Of a stretch of DNA of 32,415 nt, positions 1-31,640 are shown piece by piece. This DNA comes from Desulfovibrio sp. GTDB taxonomy: Bacteria > Bacillota > Dethiobacteria > DTU022 > UBA8154. The stretch is from assembly GCA_020060185.1 (NCBI GenBank), contig JAGVAS010000054.1:1-32415 (forward strand). The letters are read 5' to 3'. Under the pieces are notes generated by a model that was not told the origin of the DNA, did no database searches, and worked only from the letters and a program-made list of their open reading frames with translations. A program made the translations under genes and the position numbers. The stretch's first letter is position 1, and every line of letters begins with the position of its first letter.

Positions 1-172
1 AAAAAGTATATCGGTCCAAGTTCGTTTTCTGACATCCTGTCAGCTGGGTCGTCTCCAGCTCTCGTTTCGTAGTGAACTTGTTTCCTCGCTGCACAAGTCG
101 CTCCGCCAACAGCAAAATGCTGCCTCTGTGGAACAATCGCGGGATCTAAACCCGGTCATTTTCATCCAATAA

Positions 173-514: not shown

Positions 515-3019
515 TTAGCAGGAACATGTTTCCCGACAAGTAAGGATAAAACCTGATTTGTTCATTTCATTTATTAACAGTGAAGAAGAAAAGGGAAGCA
601 TCGTTTTGATCTTCCAGGAGTACCCGTTGCTTTTTAAAATAACAGCACCATGAAAATCTGTACGGTAAATTTCCACACCCCCGTCCTCCAGGGCCGAGAG
701 AGTGGCGGGATGGGGGTGCCCAAAGGAGTTGGCTCCCACGGTAATAACGGCCACACGGGGAGCAGTGCTGTCAAGAAATTGTGGCAGGTTGGAGAGGTAC
801 CCGCCGTGATGGGGTACTTTTAAGATCTGGACGGGCAATATCTTTTCTCCCTTTAAAAGATTATCCACCGCCCTTGTCTCTATATCGCCCGTAAAAAGGA
901 AGCTTATTTCCTTATATCGCAGGTGTAAAACCAGGGAATTATTGTTAGAATCGCTGTTGGTACCGTTAAATAATTCCGAAGGCGGGCTTAGCACCCTTAT
1001 CTCCAGAGACGGACCCGCAACAAAGATGTCCCCTCTCCGGACAATTTCCCGGGGAATATTTTTTTCCCGGGCCAGTTCCAGGAGCTCGCCGTAGGACTGC
1101 GTCTCGGGTAATTCTACCGTTGTTACCAGCCGCTTTACCGGGATTTTATCCAGGACAGCAAACAACCCGCCGTAATGATCCTCATGAGGGTGGCTTATTA
1201 TAACCATATCCAGCTTTTTGACACGGCGGTATTCCAGGAAAGGTACCACAACAAGGCGCCCCGTTTCGTCAATATTTCCCATGTAAGCAGGCTTTCCGCC
1301 GCTGTCCAGAAGAATATTTTGCCCCTGCGGGGTGTGGATAAAGATGGCATCTCCCTGCCCCACATCCAGGAAAACTATTTCCAGCGTGGAAGAGCCGATG
1401 CCGGGCAATCCCCACCATGTTACAAAAAGAGCTATGAGCAGGAGAAACACCAGGAAATAAAAAGGCCTTACCCGAAACTTGCAACGGTAATAGGCGGAAA
1501 GTAAAACTCTCCACCCGCCGGCCAGTAGCGCAAGGAAAAGATAGTATAACATTATTTCCGTTAATCTCGGTGGGTACACTTCACGGTACGAAAAAGGCAG
1601 GGCGCTAAACATCCTGGCAATAAAGAGAATGTAAGACAAAAGAGGATAATTTGCCAGGTTTAACAGTGAACCGGATAGGGGCCATACCAGGCCCAGGAGC
1701 GCAGAAACAAGCCCCAGGCCCAGTACCAGGGCCATAACGGGTAAAACAAATATATTGGCAATAAGGGCTACCAGGGAAACCTGCCTGAAATAATAGGCGG
1801 TCAGGGGAATTACGCCGAGCTGGGCTGCCAGCGTTACGGCTAGAAGCGAGGAAATCATCTTTACCGGAGAAAGAGTAAAAGAGAAAGGCAACCTGGCCAG
1901 AATTGCGGCGATCTTTTCCTGCAATAACGGGGTTAAAAAGAGTATTGCTGTTGTAGCCGCATAGGAAAGCTGGAAACTTACGGAAAATAGTAAAAGAGGG
2001 TTATAAACAAGGGTAATCAATACCGCAGCCGCCAGGGCTGTGGGAAAGTCCCCGGGCCGATCCAGGTGTACGGCTCCCATGGCCAGGAGAACCATTATAA
2101 AGGCCCGTATGGCAGCAGGCTTTAAACCGCACAGGTAAACGTAGGCAAAAAGAAGCAAAGCAACAAAAAGGTACGTGCACCATCCCTGCAGGCCTGTCCG
2201 CCTTCCCAACAGAAAAATAGCACCGGCTACCAGCCCTACGTGCAGGCCGGAAACTGCCAGCAAATGAGAAATGCCGCTCTGGCTGAACAATTGTCCTGTT
2301 TCCCGATCCAGGGCACTTCTTTCACCAAAAAGCATCCCCACCAGCAAGTTCCCCTCCCTTTGGGGAAGGTACGCTCTTAAAACAGCTGACATCCTGTTCC
2401 TGACTTTAAAGGCTGCCAGCTGCAGGCGGGAAAGCTCTTTAGAGATGCCCAAAAAAGTGACACCGGCAGCCGGACCATAAAAAGCTGCCGCTATTCCCCT
2501 CGTTTCCAGGAAAGACTGGTAATCAAATCCACCCGGGTTGCGGAGGCCTTTAGGCTCATATATTTTCCCCCGTAAGGATACTTTCTGCCCGTATGACAAA
2601 TCTAAAGGTATCTCCGCTTTTTCTTTCCATTGAAGAGTTACCCGGACCCTGCCGTTTACGGAATACTCCTCTTCCCTGAAACGAACTTTTTCCGAACGAA
2701 GCGTAAAGACCACATCATCCTCACGCCAGAGAGGCTCGTCTTCCACCATCCCTACCAGCAGGCAGTTCTCCCCGCTGTAGTCCCGGATGTTGCCCCGAAC
2801 CTTATGCAAAGAATAATTATAAACAAGCCCCCCGGCAACCAGGAAAACCAGCAAAAGGGGGATAAAAACCTGTACCACGTTTTTCTGGTTAAAGATATTC
2901 CATAAAGCCCAGAGAAGAGCGGCAGCTGCCGGAAGGATAAATATGTAAGGCGAAAAACAACGCCCCAGGATAATTCCTGCGACGTACGATAAGGTTAATA
3001 AAACCAGGGGACGGGTCAT
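515..3019 (-). CDS. comEC: DNA internalization-related competence protein ComEC/Rec2
   Basis: 834 aa. N-terminal DUF4131-like region, competence TM domain (GMLFGERSALDRETGQLFSQSGISHLLAVSGLHVGL), C-terminal metallo-beta-lactamase-like domain (VFLDVGQGDAIFIHTPQGQNILLDSGG, ISHPHEDHYGG). Confidence 0.95.
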   Translation of the reverse strand: MTRPLVLLTLSYVAGIILGRCFSPYIFILPAAAALLWALWNIFNQKNVVQVFIPLLLVFLVAGGLVYNYSLHKVRGNIRDYSGENCLLVGMVEDEPLWREDDVVFTLRSEKVRFREEEYSVNGRVRVTLQWKEKAEIPLDLSYGQKVSLRGKIYEPKGLRNPGGFDYQSFLETRGIAAAFYGPAAGVTFLGISKELSRLQLAAFKVRNRMSAVLRAYLPQREGNLLVGMLFGERSALDRETGQLFSQSGISHLLAVSGLHVGLVAGAIFLLGRRTGLQGWCTYLFVALLLFAYVYLCGLKPAAIRAFIMVLLAMGAVHLDRPGDFPTALAAAVLITLVYNPLLLFSVSFQLSYAATTAILFLTPLLQEKIAAILARLPFSFTLSPVKMISSLLAVTLAAQLGVIPLTAYYFRQVSLVALIANIFVLPVMALVLGLGLVSALLGLVWPLSGSLLNLANYPLLSYILFIARMFSALPFSYREVYPPRLTEIMLYYLFLALLAGGWRVLLSAYYRCKFRVRPFYFLVFLLLIALFVTWWGLPGIGSSTLEIVFLDVGQGDAIFIHTPQGQNILLDSGGKPAYMGNIDETGRLVVVPFLEYRRVKKLDMVIISHPHEDHYGGLFAVLDKIPVKRLVTTVELPETQSYGELLELAREKNIPREIVRRGDIFVAGPSLEIRVLSPPSELFNGTNSDSNNNSLVLHLRYKEISFLFTGDIETRAVDNLLKGEKILPVQILKVPHHGGYLSNLPQFLDSTAPRVAVITVGANSFGHPHPATLSALEDGGVEIYRTDFHGAVILKSNGYSWKIKTMLPFSSSLLINEMNKSGFILTCRETCSC

Positions 3020-12817: not shown

Positions 12818-13404
12818 TTAGAGGTTTAAGTCTTCTTCCAGGAAAGCCCGGTAATCAAACCCACCCGGATTGCGTCTTTCCTTTGGCTCGTAGAGAACAC
12901 CCCGCAGGGATATTTTCTGTCCGTATGATAAAAAGGCAGAAGTACCCTCCTTACTCCTGTCCTCCTTTCCACCCCGGATCCCACCCTCGCTCACTCTGGA
13001 ATCATCCAACCGAAGCGTGACCCGGACCGTGCCGCTTACGGGATGCTCCTCTCCCCTGAACTGTACTTTTTCCGAACGAAGCGTAAAGACGACATCAATC
13101 CCCAAGCCAGAGAGGCTCGTCTTCCAGCATCCCCTACCAGCAGGCAGTTCTCCCCGCTGTAATCCCGGATGTTACCGCTAACCTTTTGCAGGGAAAGGTT
13201 GCAGCCCAGGCTCCCGGCAGTCAGGAAAATTAATAACAGGGGAATAAACGCCTTCAAACCTTCCCCCCTGCAAAGCAGGTTGAAGATAGTCCAGGCCAGC
13301 GCCCCCATAGCAAGGTAAACGGATACCCGGGTAGAAAAAGAATAACGCCCCAGGACTATTCCCAGGACATAAAAAAGGGTAATGAAAACCAGGGAACGGG
13401 CCAT
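12818..13404 (-). pseudogene. Truncated, frameshifted comEC N-terminal copy
   Basis: Two overlapping ORFs align with the N-terminus of the intact comEC: GNIRDYSGENCLLVG, DVVFTLRSEKVQFRGEEHPVSGTVRVTL, LSYGQKISLRGVLYEPKERRNPGGFDYRAFLEE; ends where the intact protein continues. Confidence 0.9.
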
Positions 13405-16518: not shown

Positions 16519-16559
16519 CCTTCACAACCCTACGGGATACAACAATGCACGAAAATGTC

Positions 16560-16806
16560 CTATTTTAGATACCGTTCTATGACCCGACCAGGTGGCGCAA
16601 GGCTGGAGCAGGCGACTTGTGAAGCGAAGCAAAAAGTTCACTGCGAAGCGAAAGTGGGAGATGACCCTGCTGGCCTGGATGCCAGCAGCCAGGAGGCGAG
16701 TAGAAGGCGAGCTCCTCCTGGGAAGGTCGTCGGAAGCTCGAGGAGAGCAGTAGAACTTGCCGAGCTGAACCCGGAACTACGCCACCAGCAAACGCTGCGC
16801 TATTTT
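16560..16806. repeat. Structured intergenic element flanked by 7-bp CTATTTT direct repeats
   Basis: Nested perfect or near-perfect stems: GGTGGCG (16591-16597)/CGCCACC (16780-16786); GATGACC (16660-16666)/GGTCGTC (16725-16731, one G-U); CTGCTGGC (16667-16674)/GCCAGCAG (16681-16688); CCAGGAGG (16689-16696)/CCTCCTGG (16714-16721); AGCTCG (16735-16740)/CGAGCT (16761-16766). CTATTTT at 16560-16566 and 16800-16806. Confidence 0.6.
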
Positions 16807-16839
16807 CATATTAAGAAAAAGAAAAGAGGATTAAGCAAT

Positions 16840-23857: not shown

Positions 23858-25021
23858 TTAATCTACGAAGCTGTAGGGCGGCCAAGGTCCTGTAAACCGC
23901 ACCTTATATCCTTTCATCTCAGCAACCCCCTCCAGGACTGATCCGAGGGCCTCAACCTGGTCGGGCGCAACCAGGCAGGACCAGTTTCCGATCATTTCAT
24001 AGCCGTCCTCTGTTTTTTTATTCCGCTCCACTTTGAAATCCGCACAAAAAGGCCGGATTTTTTCTATTAGCTCGCGATGGCGGTTCGCTGCCAGCGCTTC
24101 CATTTTATCTTTGAGCAGCCTTTCCAGTTTTTCCTTGTATATATATGCTGCCCCCGCAGATTGGCCCGCCATATTCTGCTTCAAAGCAGCAAGCTCCTGC
24201 TCGACTTGAAGCAGCTCGTCGGCGATTGACCTGGTATTCCACAAAAGTTGGACGCCGTACTCCTGCCTGTTTTTCACCTTTGCAAGACGCTTTTCCAGCT
24301 GAGGCGCTTCTTTTTTCAGCCAATCCACAACAACGAGATCGGCATCTTCCTTTGAAGGATCATGCAAAATTGTATTGAAGGCATAGGGAAGAACAGCAGG
24401 AAACCTTTCGGCACACTTCTCCAAAACATCATTGTGCCTTTCTACCCACGTTTTTGCCAGCTCCTCATTCTCTGTCACGTAAGGTTCAGGGCTGCAGCGG
24501 TGTACTACCGCAGCCAGGCCTTCGGCAATCAACAGGTAAACCTGCTTTTCGTCAATGCCGCTGCATTCCAGCTCAAGCCCCTCGCGGTATTCTACCACCC
24601 CGTAGAGGTAGCAGGCGGAGCTGTTTTGTACAGTCCCCTGTTCTTCTCCTGAGTGTGCCGCTGGGCCTGATTTTTCTGAGGATGTATCCTTTTTCCCTTT
24701 TACTGTCTCCCTCAGGGAAACAATTTTATTTTCCCCGGGAACCTCTGTAGACCGCAGGGCAAGCAATCTGTTCATATTTTCCTCTACTCTATTTACGCGG
24801 GAACACAGCGATTCTATCTGGGCTTTAATGCTTCCCTGGGCTTCTTTACCGTTAAGACAGCCATAAGAGTCGCCTATAAGAGCCTGCTGCAGGAGCATTA
24901 TTCCCTTTAACTCTTCTGCAGGAGGGTTTTCATCAATTAGGCGGCACATTTCCTGGAGGCTTTCCAGGGTCAACTTTTTGCCACTTGCCAGCACGGCAAG
25001 AGCACAAAGAATGCTAAGCAA
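23858..25021 (-). CDS. GvpL/GvpF-family gas vesicle protein with long N-terminal extension
   Basis: C-terminal two-thirds is GvpL/F-like (CYLYGVVEYREGLELECSGI...LLIAEGLAAVVHRC...HNDVLEKCAERFPAVLPYAFNTIL...GYKVRFTGPWPPYSFVD). The first ~130 aa are not part of the standard GvpL/F domain. Confidence 0.88.
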   Translation of the reverse strand: MLSILCALAVLASGKKLTLESLQEMCRLIDENPPAEELKGIMLLQQALIGDSYGCLNGKEAQGSIKAQIESLCSRVNRVEENMNRLLALRSTEVPGENKIVSLRETVKGKKDTSSEKSGPAAHSGEEQGTVQNSSACYLYGVVEYREGLELECSGIDEKQVYLLIAEGLAAVVHRCSPEPYVTENEELAKTWVERHNDVLEKCAERFPAVLPYAFNTILHDPSKEDADLVVVDWLKKEAPQLEKRLAKVKNRQEYGVQLLWNTRSIADELLQVEQELAALKQNMAGQSAGAAYIYKEKLERLLKDKMEALAANRHRELIEKIRPFCADFKVERNKKTEDGYEMIGNWSCLVAPDQVEALGSVLEGVAEMKGYKVRFTGPWPPYSFVD

Positions 25022-25328
25022 GAGATTCTTCCTCCCATCGCTCAGGGTTGACGATTTTGTCTATTAATTCGTCTACCAGATCATCAAGGCCTTCGCGCAC
25101 CGTCCTTACGGATTCCGTAATACCCTGCTCTTCCTTAATGTCTTCTATGGCCTGGTCAAGTCTTAGCAGCGCCTGTCCCAGGCGTTCTATCTCCTCGCCT
25201 GTCAGGGAACCGCTGTCCATTCGGCGATAAGCCTGGTGCTTTAAGGCATCCCTGATGACCTCGACCAGCGCCAACACAAGGCCCAGAACTCCATGCTTGA
25301 GATTGTTTTCGTCAATCTTGATCGCCAC
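25014..25328 (-). CDS. gvpK: Gas vesicle protein GvpK
   Basis: LKHGVLGLVLALVEVIRDALKHQAYRRMDSGSLTGEEIERLGQALLRLDQAIEDIKEEQGI is typical of GvpK. Confidence 0.93.
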   Translation of the reverse strand: MAIKIDENNLKHGVLGLVLALVEVIRDALKHQAYRRMDSGSLTGEEIERLGQALLRLDQAIEDIKEEQGITESVRTVREGLDDLVDELIDKIVNPERWEEESLA

Positions 25329-25737
25329 GGGGAAGCCCCCCTTTTGAGATCTTTACCACCGCATTTCTTTTTGTTACCCAGGCTTCAGCGCTGCCGCTGA
25401 ATGAACTGTTGTCATCGGCGGTAAGGGAGATTAAAACCTCTCTGTCAGATTCACATACCTCGACTAGAGAGCCTGGAGCCATTTCCAGCCACCAGTGATA
25501 GGTCACCGTCTCTCCTGTCAAAGGGTCTGTGGCAGCTCGTTTTAGTGTAAGAAGCTCCTTCCCTGCCAGCCGGCGCGCAAGAGGATTTATTATTTCCCGA
25601 ACGCATCTCAGCGCTTCCATGTGATTTCGTAATCCCGCTGCGGAAGCAAGCTCATGAAGCGAGGCATGGCGCCTGGGAATAAAATATTTGACGATGGCCC
25701 TGCTTTTGGGGTCCAGTTCAGAAAGAACTTTTATCAT
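25312..25737 (-). CDS. Hypothetical protein, possible winged-helix domain, gvp operon
   Basis: MIKVLSELDPKSRAIVKYFIPRRHASLHELASAAGLRNHMEALRCVREIINPLARRL...; ATG overlaps the TGA of the upstream gvpJ-like gene (ATGA at 25737-25734). Confidence 0.7.
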   Translation of the reverse strand: MIKVLSELDPKSRAIVKYFIPRRHASLHELASAAGLRNHMEALRCVREIINPLARRLAGKELLTLKRAATDPLTGETVTYHWWLEMAPGSLVEVCESDREVLISLTADDNSSFSGSAEAWVTKRNAVVKISKGGLPRGDQD

Positions 25738-26135
25738 GATCTCTCCACCACCGGCAGGGGTGCTTTCAAAGATATTGCACTTTGCCAACCGCACCAGGGG
25801 CAGCCGAATTTAAGAAGCTCAGTGGTATATGACTTTTTCCCGCACTGTGGGCAGTCTTCCTTCTCCAGCGCGGCATTTCTCCAAGCTTCGGTGTTGTAGT
25901 TGGTCCCGCTGGGAAATTCAAGCCCGTAGCGGGCAGCAGTTTCAAAAGAAGCAAGCGCCGCCCTTACCTTCACACCCAAAAGCTCTACCCCGGCCACGGA
26001 AACAGCAATATCCGCATTTACTACCAAGCCCTTGTCCAGAACCCTGTCTATAACATCTACAAGGGAGCTTCCCTCTTTTTTCCTTCCTTCTATTTCCAGC
26101 ACAGCTTTATTCCCCTCCTCCCTGTTTGCTTTCAT
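25734..26135 (-). CDS. GvpJ-like gas vesicle protein fused to a C-terminal zinc ribbon
   Basis: GvpA fold (SLVDVIDRVLDKGLVVNADIAVSVAGVELLGVKVRAALASFETAARYGL) followed by CPQCGKKSYTTELLKFGCPWCGWQS (two CxxC pairs). Confidence 0.9.
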   Translation of the reverse strand: MKANREEGNKAVLEIEGRKKEGSSLVDVIDRVLDKGLVVNADIAVSVAGVELLGVKVRAALASFETAARYGLEFPSGTNYNTEAWRNAALEKEDCPQCGKKSYTTELLKFGCPWCGWQSAISLKAPLPVVERS

Positions 26136-26400
26136 GCCTTGCCTCTGCCATAAGCCTCATCCTCCCGGCGATTTTTGAGCGCAGCTGCCTGTATTCCTCT
26201 TCGCCGATGCTACCCAGCTCGTACTCCATCTCAAGCTCCAGTAATTTTTTCCGCAGCTCGTCCTCGTCATAAAGCTCTTTGTCTACCATTTCCCTGATCT
26301 GTTCCAGAAGAAAAACAAAACCCTTTACCGGGACGGCAACAGGGAAAAAAACCAGGTCAAGCAGGGAAATCTTAATCTCTTTACCCTTCAATTTCTTCAC
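26107..26400 (-). CDS. gvpG: Gas vesicle protein GvpG
   Basis: PVAVPVKGFVFLLEQIREMVDKELYDEDELRKKLLELEMEYELGSIGEEEYRQLRSKI matches GvpG. Confidence 0.9.
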   Translation of the reverse strand: MKKLKGKEIKISLLDLVFFPVAVPVKGFVFLLEQIREMVDKELYDEDELRKKLLELEMEYELGSIGEEEYRQLRSKIAGRMRLMAEARHESKQGGGE

Positions 26401-27149
26401 ACCTTCTCCCAGGGAACCTCAAGCCTCAGATTGACAAAATTATAGGGGGGAACAGGGGCAACGTAGCGGAAGCCGAATTTCCCCGAATATTCTTGGGCAA
26501 CTTTTTCCAGCTCATGTTCAAATTCTTCTCTTCTTGACTTCTTCAAAAGAAAGGAGGAATTGAAAAGCATCTGGACGCCCACCACATCATTCATTTTCAA
26601 ATCCATAGCATAAGGTTTAAGGCGCTTTAGTATTAAGGGAGTATATCGCTCTCTCCACTGCTCCACAGTGTTTTGAACAAGCTGGCCTACCTTTACAGCA
26701 GCCTCATAAGATTTTTTCTTATCTTCCTCTTTCTTTAAATCTTCTATTTTTCCCTGCTTGGCCTCCACTTCCCGCTGCACGGCCTCCTTTGCCCAAAATA
26801 CCTTCAGGCCAGCTTCTATTGTTCCCCGAAGCCTTGTTATTTCAGAAAGCAGATCTTCATAGTAACAACGGAGAAGCTCCAGCACATCCCTTTCGCCAGG
26901 AGCTACCGTCCCAAAACGCATCGGGAGCACTGTGTGTTCTTCCATAACTCTTTCCAGGACCTTCTGGTGGAGAAGCACATCCTCGCGCTCCGGCACGGAA
27001 TAATCGTCTTTGGCCTCCCCTACCACCGCAGCCAGGTGGCCGCAGTTAACCAGCGTAACCTCTGAAGGCGGATTTCCGAAGCCAACCTGCCCGAGGCTTT
27101 TTGACTGTGCACAGTCTGCTATTCCAAAAAGATACTTAGGGCTGCTCAA
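26397..27149 (-). CDS. gvpF: GvpL/GvpF-family gas vesicle protein
   Basis: YLFGIADC...LAAVVGEAKDDYSVPEREDVLLHQKVLERVMEEHTVLPMRFGTVAPGERDVLELL...FRYVAPVPPYNFVNLRL. Confidence 0.92.
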   Translation of the reverse strand: MSSPKYLFGIADCAQSKSLGQVGFGNPPSEVTLVNCGHLAAVVGEAKDDYSVPEREDVLLHQKVLERVMEEHTVLPMRFGTVAPGERDVLELLRCYYEDLLSEITRLRGTIEAGLKVFWAKEAVQREVEAKQGKIEDLKKEEDKKKSYEAAVKVGQLVQNTVEQWRERYTPLILKRLKPYAMDLKMNDVVGVQMLFNSSFLLKKSRREEFEHELEKVAQEYSGKFGFRYVAPVPPYNFVNLRLEVPWEKV

Positions 27150-29292
27150 GGTATTTCTCCACCCCCTTGCGGGACTTTACTTCTTTTATTCCCTCTTCAA
27201 AATCTGCCCCGGCCAGCAGGGGGCTTGTTTCTTTCCCTTCTTTTTGACTGCGAATATAGCGCCGCATCGCCCTTAAAGCTGCGCTCTGGCAAACCGCTTC
27301 AATCTCTGCACCGCTGAGTCCCTCGCTTTCTTTAGCAAGGTGTTCAAGGTTGACATCTCCACGAATTTCTTTATGGCGCAGATGAATACGAAAGATCTGC
27401 TTGCGCCCTTCTTCCTCCGGTAAAGGAAGATTGATTGTGAGATCAAACCTCCCCGGCCTTAATACGGCGGGATCGAGGATGTCCGGACGGTTTGTAGCAG
27501 CGAGCACGATCACTCCTTTAAGCTCCTCGATCCCGTCCAGTTCGGTCAAAAACTGGCTGACTACCCGATCGGTAACACCCGTATTGTCAACAAGGCCGCG
27601 CCTGGGGAGAAGGGCATCGATCTCGTCGAAAAAGATAATGCAGGGGCTTGCCTGCCGCGCCTTGCGAAACACTTCTCTGACCGCCTCCTCAGACTCTCCA
27701 ACATACTTGGACATTAATTCAGGACCCTTTACGGAGATAAAATTGGCACCGCACCTGGTCGCTGCTGCTTTGGCCAGAAGTGTCTTCCCTGTCCCCGGAG
27801 GCCCGCACAAAAGGATTCCTTTAGGGGGGCGTACCCCAAGCCTGCTGTAGAGCTCACCGTGCTCTATCGGCCATTCGATGGACTCGAGCAATATCTGCTT
27901 CACTTCGTCAAGTCCGCCCACGTCATCCCAGTCAACCTGCGGTACTTCCACGTATGTTTCGCGAAGGGCCGAAGGTTCGACCTCGCCCAGCGCCTCCACA
28001 AAGTCCTGCATCTTTACTTTTAAATTTAAAAGGAGATCGGCAGGCAGTTCGCTTGTATAATCGATTTGCGGCAGGCATCTCCTAAGGGCGTACATGGCCG
28101 CTTCTCTACAGAGGGCCGCCAGATCCGCCCCTACAAAACCGTGGGTAATAGCTGCTATCTTTTCAAGGTCCACATCGGAGGCAAGCGGCATCTCACGGGT
28201 GTGTATATCCAGAATTTCCTTTCGCCCGGCGCGGCTCGGTACGCCAATGGATATTTCCCGGTCAAACCGCCCCGGGCGCCGGAGAGCCGGGTCAAGAGCG
28301 TCCGGGATATTGGTCGCACCGATCACAACTACGCTTCCCCTCGATTTAAGCCCATCCAATAACGCCAAAAGCTGGGCAACAACACGTTTTTCTACATCTC
28401 CTCTTGTTTCTGTGCGGCGGGGTGCAATAGCGTCAAGCTCATCAATGAAAACTATTGCCGGTGCATTCTTTTCTGCTTTTTCGAACACCTCTCGCAGGTA
28501 AGCTTCGCTTTCTCCATAAAACTTGCGCATTATCTCCGGCCCGTTTACGGAAATAAAATATGCCTCTGTTTCTCCTGCAACAGCACGGGCAGTCAAGGTT
28601 TTCCCGCACCCAGGCGGGCCGTGCAAAAGTACCCCTTGGGGAGGGTCAATGCCCAGCTTTTGAAATATCTCGGGATGCCTGAGCGGCAGCTCTACCATCT
28701 CGCGTATTTTACGGATTTCCGTACCAAACCCCCCGATATCCTTATATGTGACACGCCCCGGGGCCGTCTTCATGGAGTTTTTCTCCAGCGCCAGTACAGT
28801 GTCAGGGGAAAACACAACGATACCATCCGGAGAGATTTCCAGCACCTCAAAGTCAGCCCACCGGGCTGTGGGGAAAACTACCCGAAAACGGTCTCCAGCT
28901 GTAGTAGGAAATCCTTCCAGGTAAGATAGTATCTGTGCAGTGTTTTCTGTAGGAAGGTTGCCGGAAAGAAGCTTTACATGAACTTTACCAGCACTGCTCG
29001 TACATGCAAGCGACACCTCCACCGGTTCACCCGTTTCAACCCCGGCGTTATATCTGGCCAGGCCATCAAGCTGGATAACAGCCCGGCCACGCTCTTCCTG
29101 GAAGGCGGGCATCGCTTTTAGCGGTGTCGTTCTCTTGCCGCTAACGGCAATGATATCCCCCGTGCGGGCACCTATTTTCCCCATGTCGACAGGGTCAAGA
29201 CGGGCAATGCCCCGCCATGCATCGCGGGCACCTGCTTCAACCACCTGCAGGGAGATTGGAAGAGGTTCGTTTCTGTGGGGTTTCGCCAGCAT
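27136..29292 (-). CDS. CDC48/p97-like double AAA+ ATPase
   Basis: N-domain (LPISLQVVEAGARDAWRGIARLDPVDMGKIGARTGDIIAVSGKRTT), D1 (GPPGCGKTLTARAVAGE, IVFIDELDAIAPRR) and D2 (GPPGTGKTLLAKAAATR, IIFFDEIDALLPRRG) with second-region-of-homology arginines. Confidence 0.95.
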   Translation of the reverse strand: MLAKPHRNEPLPISLQVVEAGARDAWRGIARLDPVDMGKIGARTGDIIAVSGKRTTPLKAMPAFQEERGRAVIQLDGLARYNAGVETGEPVEVSLACTSSAGKVHVKLLSGNLPTENTAQILSYLEGFPTTAGDRFRVVFPTARWADFEVLEISPDGIVVFSPDTVLALEKNSMKTAPGRVTYKDIGGFGTEIRKIREMVELPLRHPEIFQKLGIDPPQGVLLHGPPGCGKTLTARAVAGETEAYFISVNGPEIMRKFYGESEAYLREVFEKAEKNAPAIVFIDELDAIAPRRTETRGDVEKRVVAQLLALLDGLKSRGSVVVIGATNIPDALDPALRRPGRFDREISIGVPSRAGRKEILDIHTREMPLASDVDLEKIAAITHGFVGADLAALCREAAMYALRRCLPQIDYTSELPADLLLNLKVKMQDFVEALGEVEPSALRETYVEVPQVDWDDVGGLDEVKQILLESIEWPIEHGELYSRLGVRPPKGILLCGPPGTGKTLLAKAAATRCGANFISVKGPELMSKYVGESEEAVREVFRKARQASPCIIFFDEIDALLPRRGLVDNTGVTDRVVSQFLTELDGIEELKGVIVLAATNRPDILDPAVLRPGRFDLTINLPLPEEEGRKQIFRIHLRHKEIRGDVNLEHLAKESEGLSGAEIEAVCQSAALRAMRRYIRSQKEGKETSPLLAGADFEEGIKEVKSRKGVEKYLEQP

Positions 29293-29302
29293 TTTTTACA
29301 CC

Positions 29303-29842
29303 TCATTTTATGTTTCTTTTTTTGAATTTTAGCTCCAGAATGCCGTTCCTGTACGATTTTTGCAGTGAAGAGGCATCTACACCTGAAGGAAGAATGATTT
29401 TTTTCTCATAGTGCCTCCCTTTACGCCTGCCCTCTACCGTAAGAATCCTTTCCTTTACCTGGACGTTTATCGCTTCGACATCAACACCGGGCATTTCTAA
29501 AATAACAACAAACTGATCTTCTTCGTCGAATACATCGGTCAATGGTTCAATGGTATCATCGACCCTGCCGTCTTCCCGGATATTCCCAAAGCGCTCGAGC
29601 GCAGGTTTTCCGCCCAGGCCGAGGCGAACCGTATAACCGTAAACAGCCCTGGTTCTGCCGGGTCCTCTTACCTCTTTTCTCCTGGTTATTTCACTTTTGC
29701 CTTCCTTTTCCATTTCGCCGACCAGCTTTACAAAATTCCCCAGCCCTTTAAAAAAGTCACCCAGGGAGAGGCCTATCTCGACCTCGGCCTCGCGGCCTTC
29801 TTCATGATTGTTTCCGTTGTGCTTTTTCTTTTCATCGCCCAC
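29303..29842 (-). CDS. gvpH: Hsp20/alpha-crystallin family protein (GvpH-like)
   Basis: C-terminal alpha-crystallin domain: PLTDVFDEEDQFVVILEMPGVDVEAINVQVKERILTVEGRRKGRHYEKKIILPSGVDASSLQKSYRNGILELKFKKR; lies between gvpN and the AAA+ gene. Confidence 0.85.
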   Translation of the reverse strand: MGDEKKKHNGNNHEEGREAEVEIGLSLGDFFKGLGNFVKLVGEMEKEGKSEITRRKEVRGPGRTRAVYGYTVRLGLGGKPALERFGNIREDGRVDDTIEPLTDVFDEEDQFVVILEMPGVDVEAINVQVKERILTVEGRRKGRHYEKKIILPSGVDASSLQKSYRNGILELKFKKRNIK

Positions 29843-29864
29843 GTTTTCTCACCCGCTTTCCGCT

Positions 29865-30773
29865 TTATGAAACACCCCTTATAGCAGTCGAAGCAAGGAT
29901 TTTCTTAAGAGATTCCAAGGTGCTTTTCCTGGCCTCGCTTCCATTAATGTGGGAGGAAATTACATCGATGACAACCGCCCTGATGTAAGGATCCGAGAAA
30001 TCCGTTTTCAGGTTGAGGGCCGCCAGTATCTTTGCAATAGCGATAGATGCCCTTGCTGTCGGCCGTACAGGGATATTATCATCTTCCCTGATTCGCCTTA
30101 CCAGCTGAACGATTTTCTTTGCCTCTTTTCCGGGCAGGCCGGATTTCGCAGCGGTAATAGCGGATTCGGTTTCTTCGTCATACTGATCGAGGTAAATGGT
30201 AACCATCCTGTCACGCAGAGCGTCCTGGCTTTTATATACACCGGCGTACTCTTCAGGATTGCTTGTAAATATCGCCGAAAAGCGGGGATCCACCTTGACG
30301 TAAGAAGTTTCGTTGGGTAGGGCAAGCACCCTCTCCTCGAGCGCGGCAAGAAGAACGTTGTTGGCCTCGGGACGGGATCTCGTAAACTCGTCATAAACCA
30401 GGGTGTAGCCCATTTTACACGCTGTAACGAGGCGGCTGTCCACCCAGTGCCGGGAAAAATCCTCCTCCGTTTTTGTCACCGAGTGGATAAAGTTGTCTAC
30501 AACGCGCCTGTACCTATAACCGGACAGCCCTCCCATGATATCCGTGCTGCCAAACTGCTCGTCACCGTAGATGAGCACAACGGGACGGAAAAGACGGGCC
30601 GCAATATGCAGCGCCAGCGTCGTTTTGCCCACCCCCGAAGGGCCGCTTAGGTTTACGGCGAACCCGCACCTGAGGTAAGAAAGCGCTCTCTCCACCACAT
30701 CCCTGATAAAAGTCGTCTCCACGAAATGCTGGCTGGGTCTGGGTTCCAGGGTCATCAGCTTTTCCAACCGCAT
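29865..30773 (-). CDS. gvpN: Gas vesicle protein GvpN (AAA+ ATPase)
   Basis: ALSYLRCGFAVNLSGPSGVGKTTLALHIAARLFRPVVLIYGDEQFGSTDIMGG...LVYDEFTRSRPEANNVLLAALEERVLALP. Confidence 0.95.
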   Translation of the reverse strand: MRLEKLMTLEPRPSQHFVETTFIRDVVERALSYLRCGFAVNLSGPSGVGKTTLALHIAARLFRPVVLIYGDEQFGSTDIMGGLSGYRYRRVVDNFIHSVTKTEEDFSRHWVDSRLVTACKMGYTLVYDEFTRSRPEANNVLLAALEERVLALPNETSYVKVDPRFSAIFTSNPEEYAGVYKSQDALRDRMVTIYLDQYDEETESAITAAKSGLPGKEAKKIVQLVRRIREDDNIPVRPTARASIAIAKILAALNLKTDFSDPYIRAVVIDVISSHINGSEARKSTLESLKKILASTAIRGVS

Positions 30774-30794
30774 AGCAGTTCACCGCCTTTAGGG

Positions 30795-31640
30795 TTAGTC
30801 CTCTTTCCGTAACGGTACATACAGCAATCCTTCCTTCGCGATTTTTCCCTCGTCAATCAGGGCCCTGGTTAGATTTCCACCACGGATGCGCGGGATATTA
30901 AATTCCAATTCGATATCGGTAAGCTTAACTCCCTGCGGATGGCTGTTTACATAAGCAAAAATACGCTCCTTTATCTCTTCTTCATCTACACCTTCAGGCG
31001 CTGCAGCCTCTTCCGGAACAGGGGTCTCAAAGACAGTCTCTTCTACTATTTCAGCAGCTTCTTCCGGCCTCTCCACGGGCTGCTCCGGCAACACGGGTTT
31101 CACGGCATACAGCGTAAACCAGGCCTTCCGGCATTCTTCTCGTTCCGCCCTGCAGTTTTGGAGGAATCGGTACACATCTTTTCTTCTTTCCAAGCAGCTC
31201 TTTTCCAGCGCTGCCTTCGTCTCTTTCGCATTTTTTCTCCTTGCTTCTCCGAATTCCCTTAGAGTATTACCGACAGCCCCGGCGCGATCTTTTGTCAAAG
31301 CACGAACTTCTGAAAGAAAGTCATTGATATCGGAAAGAAGCCCGTCAATTTCTTTCTTGTTCTGAAGCCGGTATTCGGAAAGCTGTTTTCTCAAATCTTT
31401 TCCAGCATCTTTACGGTAACGTCCGTACTCACTCAGAAGTTCGGCCAGTTCCCTGCGGCGCAGTTGTTTATCCTGGTGAAGCTCCTCCCTCATCAGTTTT
31501 GCTTCAGCCATTCTCGTTTGACAAAAGCCAGATAAGGAGGAAGAAACATCTTTTTTTAAAAAAACTCGCCAACTTTTTCTTTCATCACGCTCTGCGGAAA
31601 TATCCTTACATAGAGCATGGACCTCTTCTGCACGTCCCAT
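30795..31640 (-). CDS. GvpC-like coiled-coil repeat protein with C-terminal winged-helix domain
   Basis: Long charged heptad-like region (ELLSEYGRYRKDAGKDLRKQLSEYRLQNKKEIDGLLSDINDFLSEVRALTKDRAG...), acidic Pro/Glu linker, C-terminal EEIKERIFAYVNSHPQGVKLTDIELEFNIPRIRGGNLTRALIDEGKIAKEGLLYVPL. Directly follows gvpA. Confidence 0.7.
   Translation of the reverse strand: MGRAEEVHALCKDISAERDERKSWRVFLKKDVSSSLSGFCQTRMAEAKLMREELHQDKQLRRRELAELLSEYGRYRKDAGKDLRKQLSEYRLQNKKEIDGLLSDINDFLSEVRALTKDRAGAVGNTLREFGEARRKNAKETKAALEKSCLERRKDVYRFLQNCRAEREECRKAWFTLYAVKPVLPEQPVERPEEAAEIVEETVFETPVPEEAAAPEGVDEEEIKERIFAYVNSHPQGVKLTDIELEFNIPRIRGGNLTRALIDEGKIAKEGLLYVPLRKED

Follow-up and report, generated by a model that had tools for sequence, protein, structure and literature searches.

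Between the genes for a polysaccharide deacetylase and a DUF456 protein, the window (the whole 32,415-nt stretch of DNA that was analysed) contains a multi-stem sequence that is, as first described, richer in G+C (54%) than its flanks (46-48%). This raises the question of whether the locus is a mobile DNA element or a structured RNA. A preliminary description had offered the two as alternatives, i.e., a mobile palindromic element of the MITE or REP kind and a structured RNA in the leader of DUF456. Each was partly right, and they are one and the same thing. Taken as a whole, the locus is very probably a worn member of a non-coding mobile repeat family of high copy number, which carries a TwoAYGGAY-like core and is presumably moved in trans. 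The coordinates of this copy and its parts are given in Table 1.

Table 1. Positions of the repeat, its parts and a second copy within the window
Feature	Position	Strand	Basis
Whole mobile repeat, one copy (296 bp)	16519-16814	+	Copy alignment and empty site in G001/G003
Insertion target CTAA	16515-16518	+	Its TAA serves as stop codon of the upstream deacetylase gene
Conserved left end, consensus CCGCCACGACCCTRCGGGTCACAACAATGGATGAAAATG, worn in the window	16519-16552	+	Genome-wide left-end count
Core, TwoAYGGAY-like structured RNA	16610-16778	+	Covariance model built without the window copy, 154.6 bits, E 2.3e-34
Three-way junction, GATGACC/GGTCGTC enclosing two hairpins	16660-16731	+	Covariation and model match
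Hairpin 1, loop CTGGAT, GGA kept	16667-16688	+	Letters read, loop comparison
Hairpin 2, loop AGAAGG, GGA lost	16689-16721	+	Letters read, loop comparison
Conserved right end CGCTGCGCTATTTTCATATTAA	16790-16814	+	Copy alignment
Truncated second copy of this repeat, at the edge of the contig	1-168	-	Core part 1-103, 53.2 bits

A dispersed repeat inserted upstream of DUF456

The limits originally set for the element (16560-16806) were wrong. Aligned copies and an empty site place its left boundary after CTAA and its right boundary after TTAA. The consensus termini are CCGCCACGACCCTRCGGGTCACAACAATGGATGAAAATG directly after YTAA at the start and ATTTTCATAYTAA at the finish; the conserved left end of the repeat in the genus of the window can also be given as CCGCCACGACCCTRCGGGTCAC. 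The repeat is abundant in its own genome, a Dethiobacter-related MAG (2.47 Mb, 200 contigs, 89% complete). The BLASTN search for dispersed copies that had been proposed as a check yielded 46 matches, and the left end occurs 62 times, compared with zero for a control (up to three mismatches). With 139 covariance-model matches and a covarying core, this is not the single-copy sequence without covariation that had been named as the contrary outcome. Short, non-coding and present in many dispersed copies, the family resembles MITEs in these respects. The dispersed mobile element of the early reading therefore stands, but not its assignment to REP sequences, as the unit of about 296 bp contrasts with the 20-40-nt palindromes and RAYT transposase of REP systems. 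Copies with an internal GGGGACA...GTCCCC repeat are found at several loci, as are nested type-A-in-type-B copies in the same-genus genome G003, which indicates that modified copies have multiplied. Among named organisms, the closest relative in which the repeat occurs is Dethiobacter sp. SURF_39, the sole result of a pattern scan of named genomes, and a BLASTN search for phage or plasmid carriage gave no match.

Many copies in the MAG are located at the ends of contigs, as would be expected if assembly stopped at the repeat, and the repeat may therefore be a cause of fragmented assemblies. A second short repeat, GGGGACACACC...GGAATGTCCCC, resembles the REP sequences of RAYT systems and occurs inside copies and elsewhere (L025, L079, L089, L102, L104, L093; own genome). 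Elsewhere in the window, a 122-aa ORF (13036-13404, - strand) looks by eye like the N-terminal part of a broken duplicate of the 834-aa ComEC/Rec2-like protein encoded at 515-3019 (- strand), and the region 23859-31640 (- strand) contains gas-vesicle-like genes (GvpF/L-, GvpN-like, AAA ATPases, Hsp20-like) as judged by eye from translations.

The same pair of polysaccharide deacetylase and DUF456 genes is present in G001 and G003, both from the same genus, with a spacing of 21-22 bp. These loci are empty sites lacking the repeat, and they place the insertion of the window copy at the CTAA that holds the deacetylase stop codon. Together with the mixed orientation of copies (18 sense and 20 antisense to the next gene, n = 38), they also contradict the leader part of the structured-RNA reading. 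A cis-regulatory leader of DUF456 would agree with the position of the repeat upstream of this gene and in the same direction, and with the typing of TwoAYGGAY (RF01731, clan CL00106) as cis-regulatory by Rfam. Neither of the two relatives, however, has the repeat in the 21-22 bp before DUF456, and with 20 of the 38 copies antisense to the next gene we give this explanation hardly any credence. The gene context of the repeat holds no cis-regulatory signal, and 34 of the 38 copies lie outside long reading frames. Coding capacity was a further candidate, since conservation of a 95-aa upstream extension as protein had been named as evidence against a non-coding element. This extension was rejected as protein-coding and lacks such conservation, the two closest relatives having a 163-aa open frame for the 158-aa query.

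The core is a conserved, covarying fold

The core of about 170 nt is a conserved, covarying RNA-like fold. Its structure, predicted on the + strand, is a rod with internal loops that are mostly tandem G-A pairs, as read from the alignment, followed by a three-way junction with two hairpins. We extracted 62 distinct full-length cores. Among 39 family members, 24 of the 41 predicted pairs had changes on both sides, and the entire outer stem has been exchanged yet still pairs (GGTGGCGCAAGGTTG/CAACCTTCGCCACC, GCAGCGTTTTGCTG/CAGCAAACGCTGC, GGTGGTGAAAGGATGTAGTG/CACTACATCCTTCACCACC, GATGACGCAGGACTGTAG/CTACAGCCTTCGACATC). On the + strand, the strand used for the structure prediction, G-T cells outnumbered A-C cells by 171:52 in the family and, more weakly, by 48:30 phylum-wide. 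Across 60 phylum-wide matches, both-side changes affected 40 of 41 pairs and 91% of pair cells were standard (63% when shuffled), although these pair counts lean towards the model because the alignment (A2) was fitted to its structure; the covariation score was 0.667, compared with 0.05-0.10 in slid controls.

Several parts of the early structural description belong to this fold. The junction closed by GATGACC (16660-16666) and GGTCGTC (16725-16731) is present, conserved and covarying among copies, and the two perfect 8-bp hairpins are situated in it. The GCGAAGC repeats were confirmed in the letters, with two occurrences. Two further stems are there in their letters but not in their supposed roles. 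GGTGGCG (16591-16597) and CGCCACC (16780-16786), read as an outer stem, are out of register with the family pairing, in which GGTGGCGCAAGGTTG pairs with CAACCTTCGCCACC adjoining the right end, or GCAGCGTTTTGCTG with CAGCAAACGCTGC. AGCTCG (16735-16740) and CGAGCT (16761-16766) have no part in the family structure. The outer stem of the window copy is a hybrid, with its left half of the first type and its right end of the second. This mismatch and the loss of GGA from one hairpin loop indicate that the window copy is probably a worn, degenerate fossil of the repeat. Its predicted folding does not surpass that of shuffled versions (z -1.31; equalled by 24 of 200 shuffles), and an impression gained from folding this single sequence is therefore insufficient.

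Relationship to the TwoAYGGAY RNA family

A chain of model matches links the core by homology to the TwoAYGGAY RNA family, and the core occurs widely among the Bacillota. In this chain, sequences found by the model of the repeat reach the Rfam gathering score (43 bits for RF01731). Matches above gathering were obtained for L172 (46.2 bits) and L181 (54.5 and 53.5 bits), and they share coordinates with matches of our model R1. The window copy fails this threshold, the Rfam scan of the window returned no TwoAYGGAY match even at E up to 10, the window-genus copies tested score below gathering and the related copy L050 reaches 32 bits; the family came to light through relatives alone. The Rfam and covariation check suggested at the outset thus had a divided outcome, i.e., no Rfam match for the window copy and covariation among its homologs, both within the family and phylum-wide. 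The core has the conserved covarying stem with a three-way junction that characterizes TwoAYGGAY, and strict AYGGAY loops occur in only 18-20 of 60 phylum-wide copies (for the window loops see Table 1).

By model search, the core was found in 28 of the 98 genomes from the class and in 46 of 399 sampled Bacillota genomes, representing 40 of 268 genera, mostly at full length and in multiple copies. In unrelated genera the RNA is often arranged in divergent pairs (- then +) about 120-320 bp apart (G220:C20, G396:C72, G396:C49, G020:C8, G009:C127). TwoAYGGAY was listed in 2010 by Weinberg et al. as a probable RNA that is not cis-regulatory and has no assigned function (PMC2864571). A description of the family as mobile was not found in those parts of the literature that mention it, and a search for literature on mobile TwoAYGGAY or Dethiobacter repeats found none in the papers listed. 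The model of the repeat detects many copies that Rfam misses, and the occurrence of TwoAYGGAY relatives as high-copy mobile elements changes the reading of the distribution of the family and of its 'regulatory' contexts.

Insertion at YTAA in the genus of the window

The CTATTTT heptamers at 16560-16566 and 16800-16806 had been taken as possible target-site duplications. The letters are correct, but these are chance repeats: the right one is inside the conserved right end (CTATTTTCATAYTAA), and the left one is intra-element, at a position where the consensus reads CGGGTTTAG. Among 25 intact non-tandem copies, no target duplication was found beyond the invariant (Y)TAA, where a 1-3-bp duplication inside TAA is possible; neighbouring tandem copies have a TTAA in common. 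Longer duplications in other registers were also not found in the window family, whereas the same test recovered the 9-bp duplication of a positive control from another family, G279 (152 matches observed vs 49 expected). Terminal inverted repeats are likewise lacking in the window family, only ATGAAAAT being common to both end regions. In duplication and inverted repeats the family therefore departs from MITEs, whereas the G279 element described below has both.

We propose that the repeat would multiply by transposition in trans, served by any transposase able to recognise its acquired ends. In the genus of the window, an enzyme acting in trans would insert it at (Y)TAA and leave no detectable duplication. 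No transposase with matching ends was seen among the left ends read in the MAG. A fixed short target (YTAA) without duplication, save for the possible 1-3 bp inside TAA, is also the behaviour of IS200/IS605-type elements. Accordingly, the repeat could instead be a gene-less single-strand Y1 element, for which TnpA uses end hairpins and inserts 3' of YTAA, the fold serving single-stranded DNA transposition. Insertion at YTAA without duplication, the hairpin GACCC-TRC-GGGTC located 7 nt inside the left end and the strand-asymmetric G-T pairs would suit such an element, but the own genome has just one partial Y1 transposase match and copy-rich G003 has none. The Y1 loci examined had no ends matching the repeat, which speaks against a Y1 transposase as its mobiliser, and type-B copies are devoid of a local hairpin at the right end. 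Moreover, the same core is associated with an IS4-type system in G279, and ends alone would not need a fold of 170 nt conserved across Bacillota. A Y1 element is therefore an unlikely explanation.

A second mobile form of the core in another family

In G279, a genome from another family of Bacillota, the core sits in a 262-bp MITE. Near-identical copies have 18-bp inverted repeats (CTGAGYTATCCCCAGTTT) as their exact termini, with a duplicated 9-mer on either side. We examined 21 pairs of terminal repeats, 239-273 bp apart, 18 of which contain the core; the duplication extends to at least 7 of 9 bases in 16 of the 21 pairs and is perfect in seven of those. A 1,120-bp partner element shares these ends and is flanked by a perfect 9-bp duplication; it encodes an IS4-family transposase, divided between two frames, and lacks the core. 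Inverted repeats, duplications, the core inside and an IS4-family element sharing those ends together show that the G279 core travels within a MITE, which could be mobilised by an IS4-family enzyme. With the repeat in the genus of the window and the MITE in G279, at least two lineages have a known orphan RNA as cargo of mobile DNA.

Apparent terminal repeats of single copies in other genomes are mostly just the outer stem. One possible further MITE with a TwoAYGGAY-like core, L171 (G343:C5), has an inverted repeat matching at 12 of 16 positions and the 9-bp repeat CCTTAAAGG on both sides (9 of 9 duplicated bases; score 21 vs a null maximum of 18).

A strongly conserved multi-domain fold within mobile DNA could also be the RNA partner in a mobile system, RNA-guided or RNA-dependent, that has so far escaped recognition. 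There is a precedent in RAGATH-18, an orphan RNA now explained as TnpB guide RNAs (PMC11061315). However, inspection of 20 loci by eye showed no obvious protein gene recurring beside the core, and the IS4 element of G279 has no core, which makes such a system very unlikely here.

GGA loops and CsrA

Each hairpin loop contains GGA in 58 of 60 phylum-wide copies. Within the own genome 33 of 38 copies have it in both loops, the window copy being among the five without the second. GGA in hairpin loops, as in CsrA-titrating sRNAs, is thus found at the level of the family, with one lost in the window copy. Binding of CsrA by TwoAYGGAY has been proposed from motif matches in a later paper (PMC4333381). 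A CsrA gene is present in 44 of the 46 genomes that carry the element compared with 240 of 353 without (Fisher p 2e-5, uncorrected for phylogeny). Searches of the own MAG (89% complete) and of G275 (94% complete, six element matches) detected none; three genus mates of the own MAG have one. In a transcript of the + strand, both GGA hairpin loops may bind CsrA, and the copies would then act as mobile CsrA-binding sites or decoys, a possibility that we advance tentatively on the strength of these motifs.

The GGA in both loops, the co-occurrence with CsrA and the binding proposal of PMC4333381 would also fit a family of trans-acting CsrA-binding (sponge) RNA genes that was multiplied by recombination and not by transposition. 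The empty site, the insertion at a stop codon, the composite copies and, in G279, the terminal repeats flanked by 9-bp duplications call for a process akin to transposition, and we regard a recombining sponge family as quite improbable.

If the mobile repeat moved in trans is viewed more broadly, it is conceivable, albeit doubtful, that the TwoAYGGAY RNAs of Bacillota are generally cargo of non-autonomous transposons with repeatedly captured ends, persisting via CsrA binding. The captured ends would be IS4-type in one lineage and those of a YTAA-inserting system in the genus of the window. If true, transposons would spread CsrA-binding decoys or post-transcriptional control sites. Two questions become testable in this light: which transposases carry TwoAYGGAY, and whether CsrA-binding RNAs are spread through genomes by mobile elements.

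Comparison with known systems

Like TwoAYGGAY RNA, the core has a three-way junction, two hairpins with A(N)GGA loops and tandem G-A loops, on the same strand and over the same extent. It differs in that the tested copies from the genus of the window are sub-threshold, number about 139 matches in one genome and reside inside a mobile repeat. CsrA-titrating RNAs of the CsrB/RsmZ type have GGA in hairpin loops as in the core, but the repeat has two putative sites only and is mobile. Like the MITEs mobilised by IS4-family transposases, the 262-bp G279 element has inverted repeats (18 bp), target duplications (9 bp) and an IS4-family partner, whereas the window family has neither inverted repeats nor duplications. 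Palindrome-associated elements of IS200/IS605 share with the repeat the lack of duplication, the short left-end target and a subterminal hairpin; by contrast, no matching Y1 transposase was found and the right end of the repeat has no constant hairpin. Repeats of the ERIC, Correia and bcr type are 100-300 bp long, non-coding, palindromic, intergenic and of high copy number. By description, the window repeat is alike in all these traits, yet it differs in having a fold that is conserved between genera and that corresponds to an RNA family.
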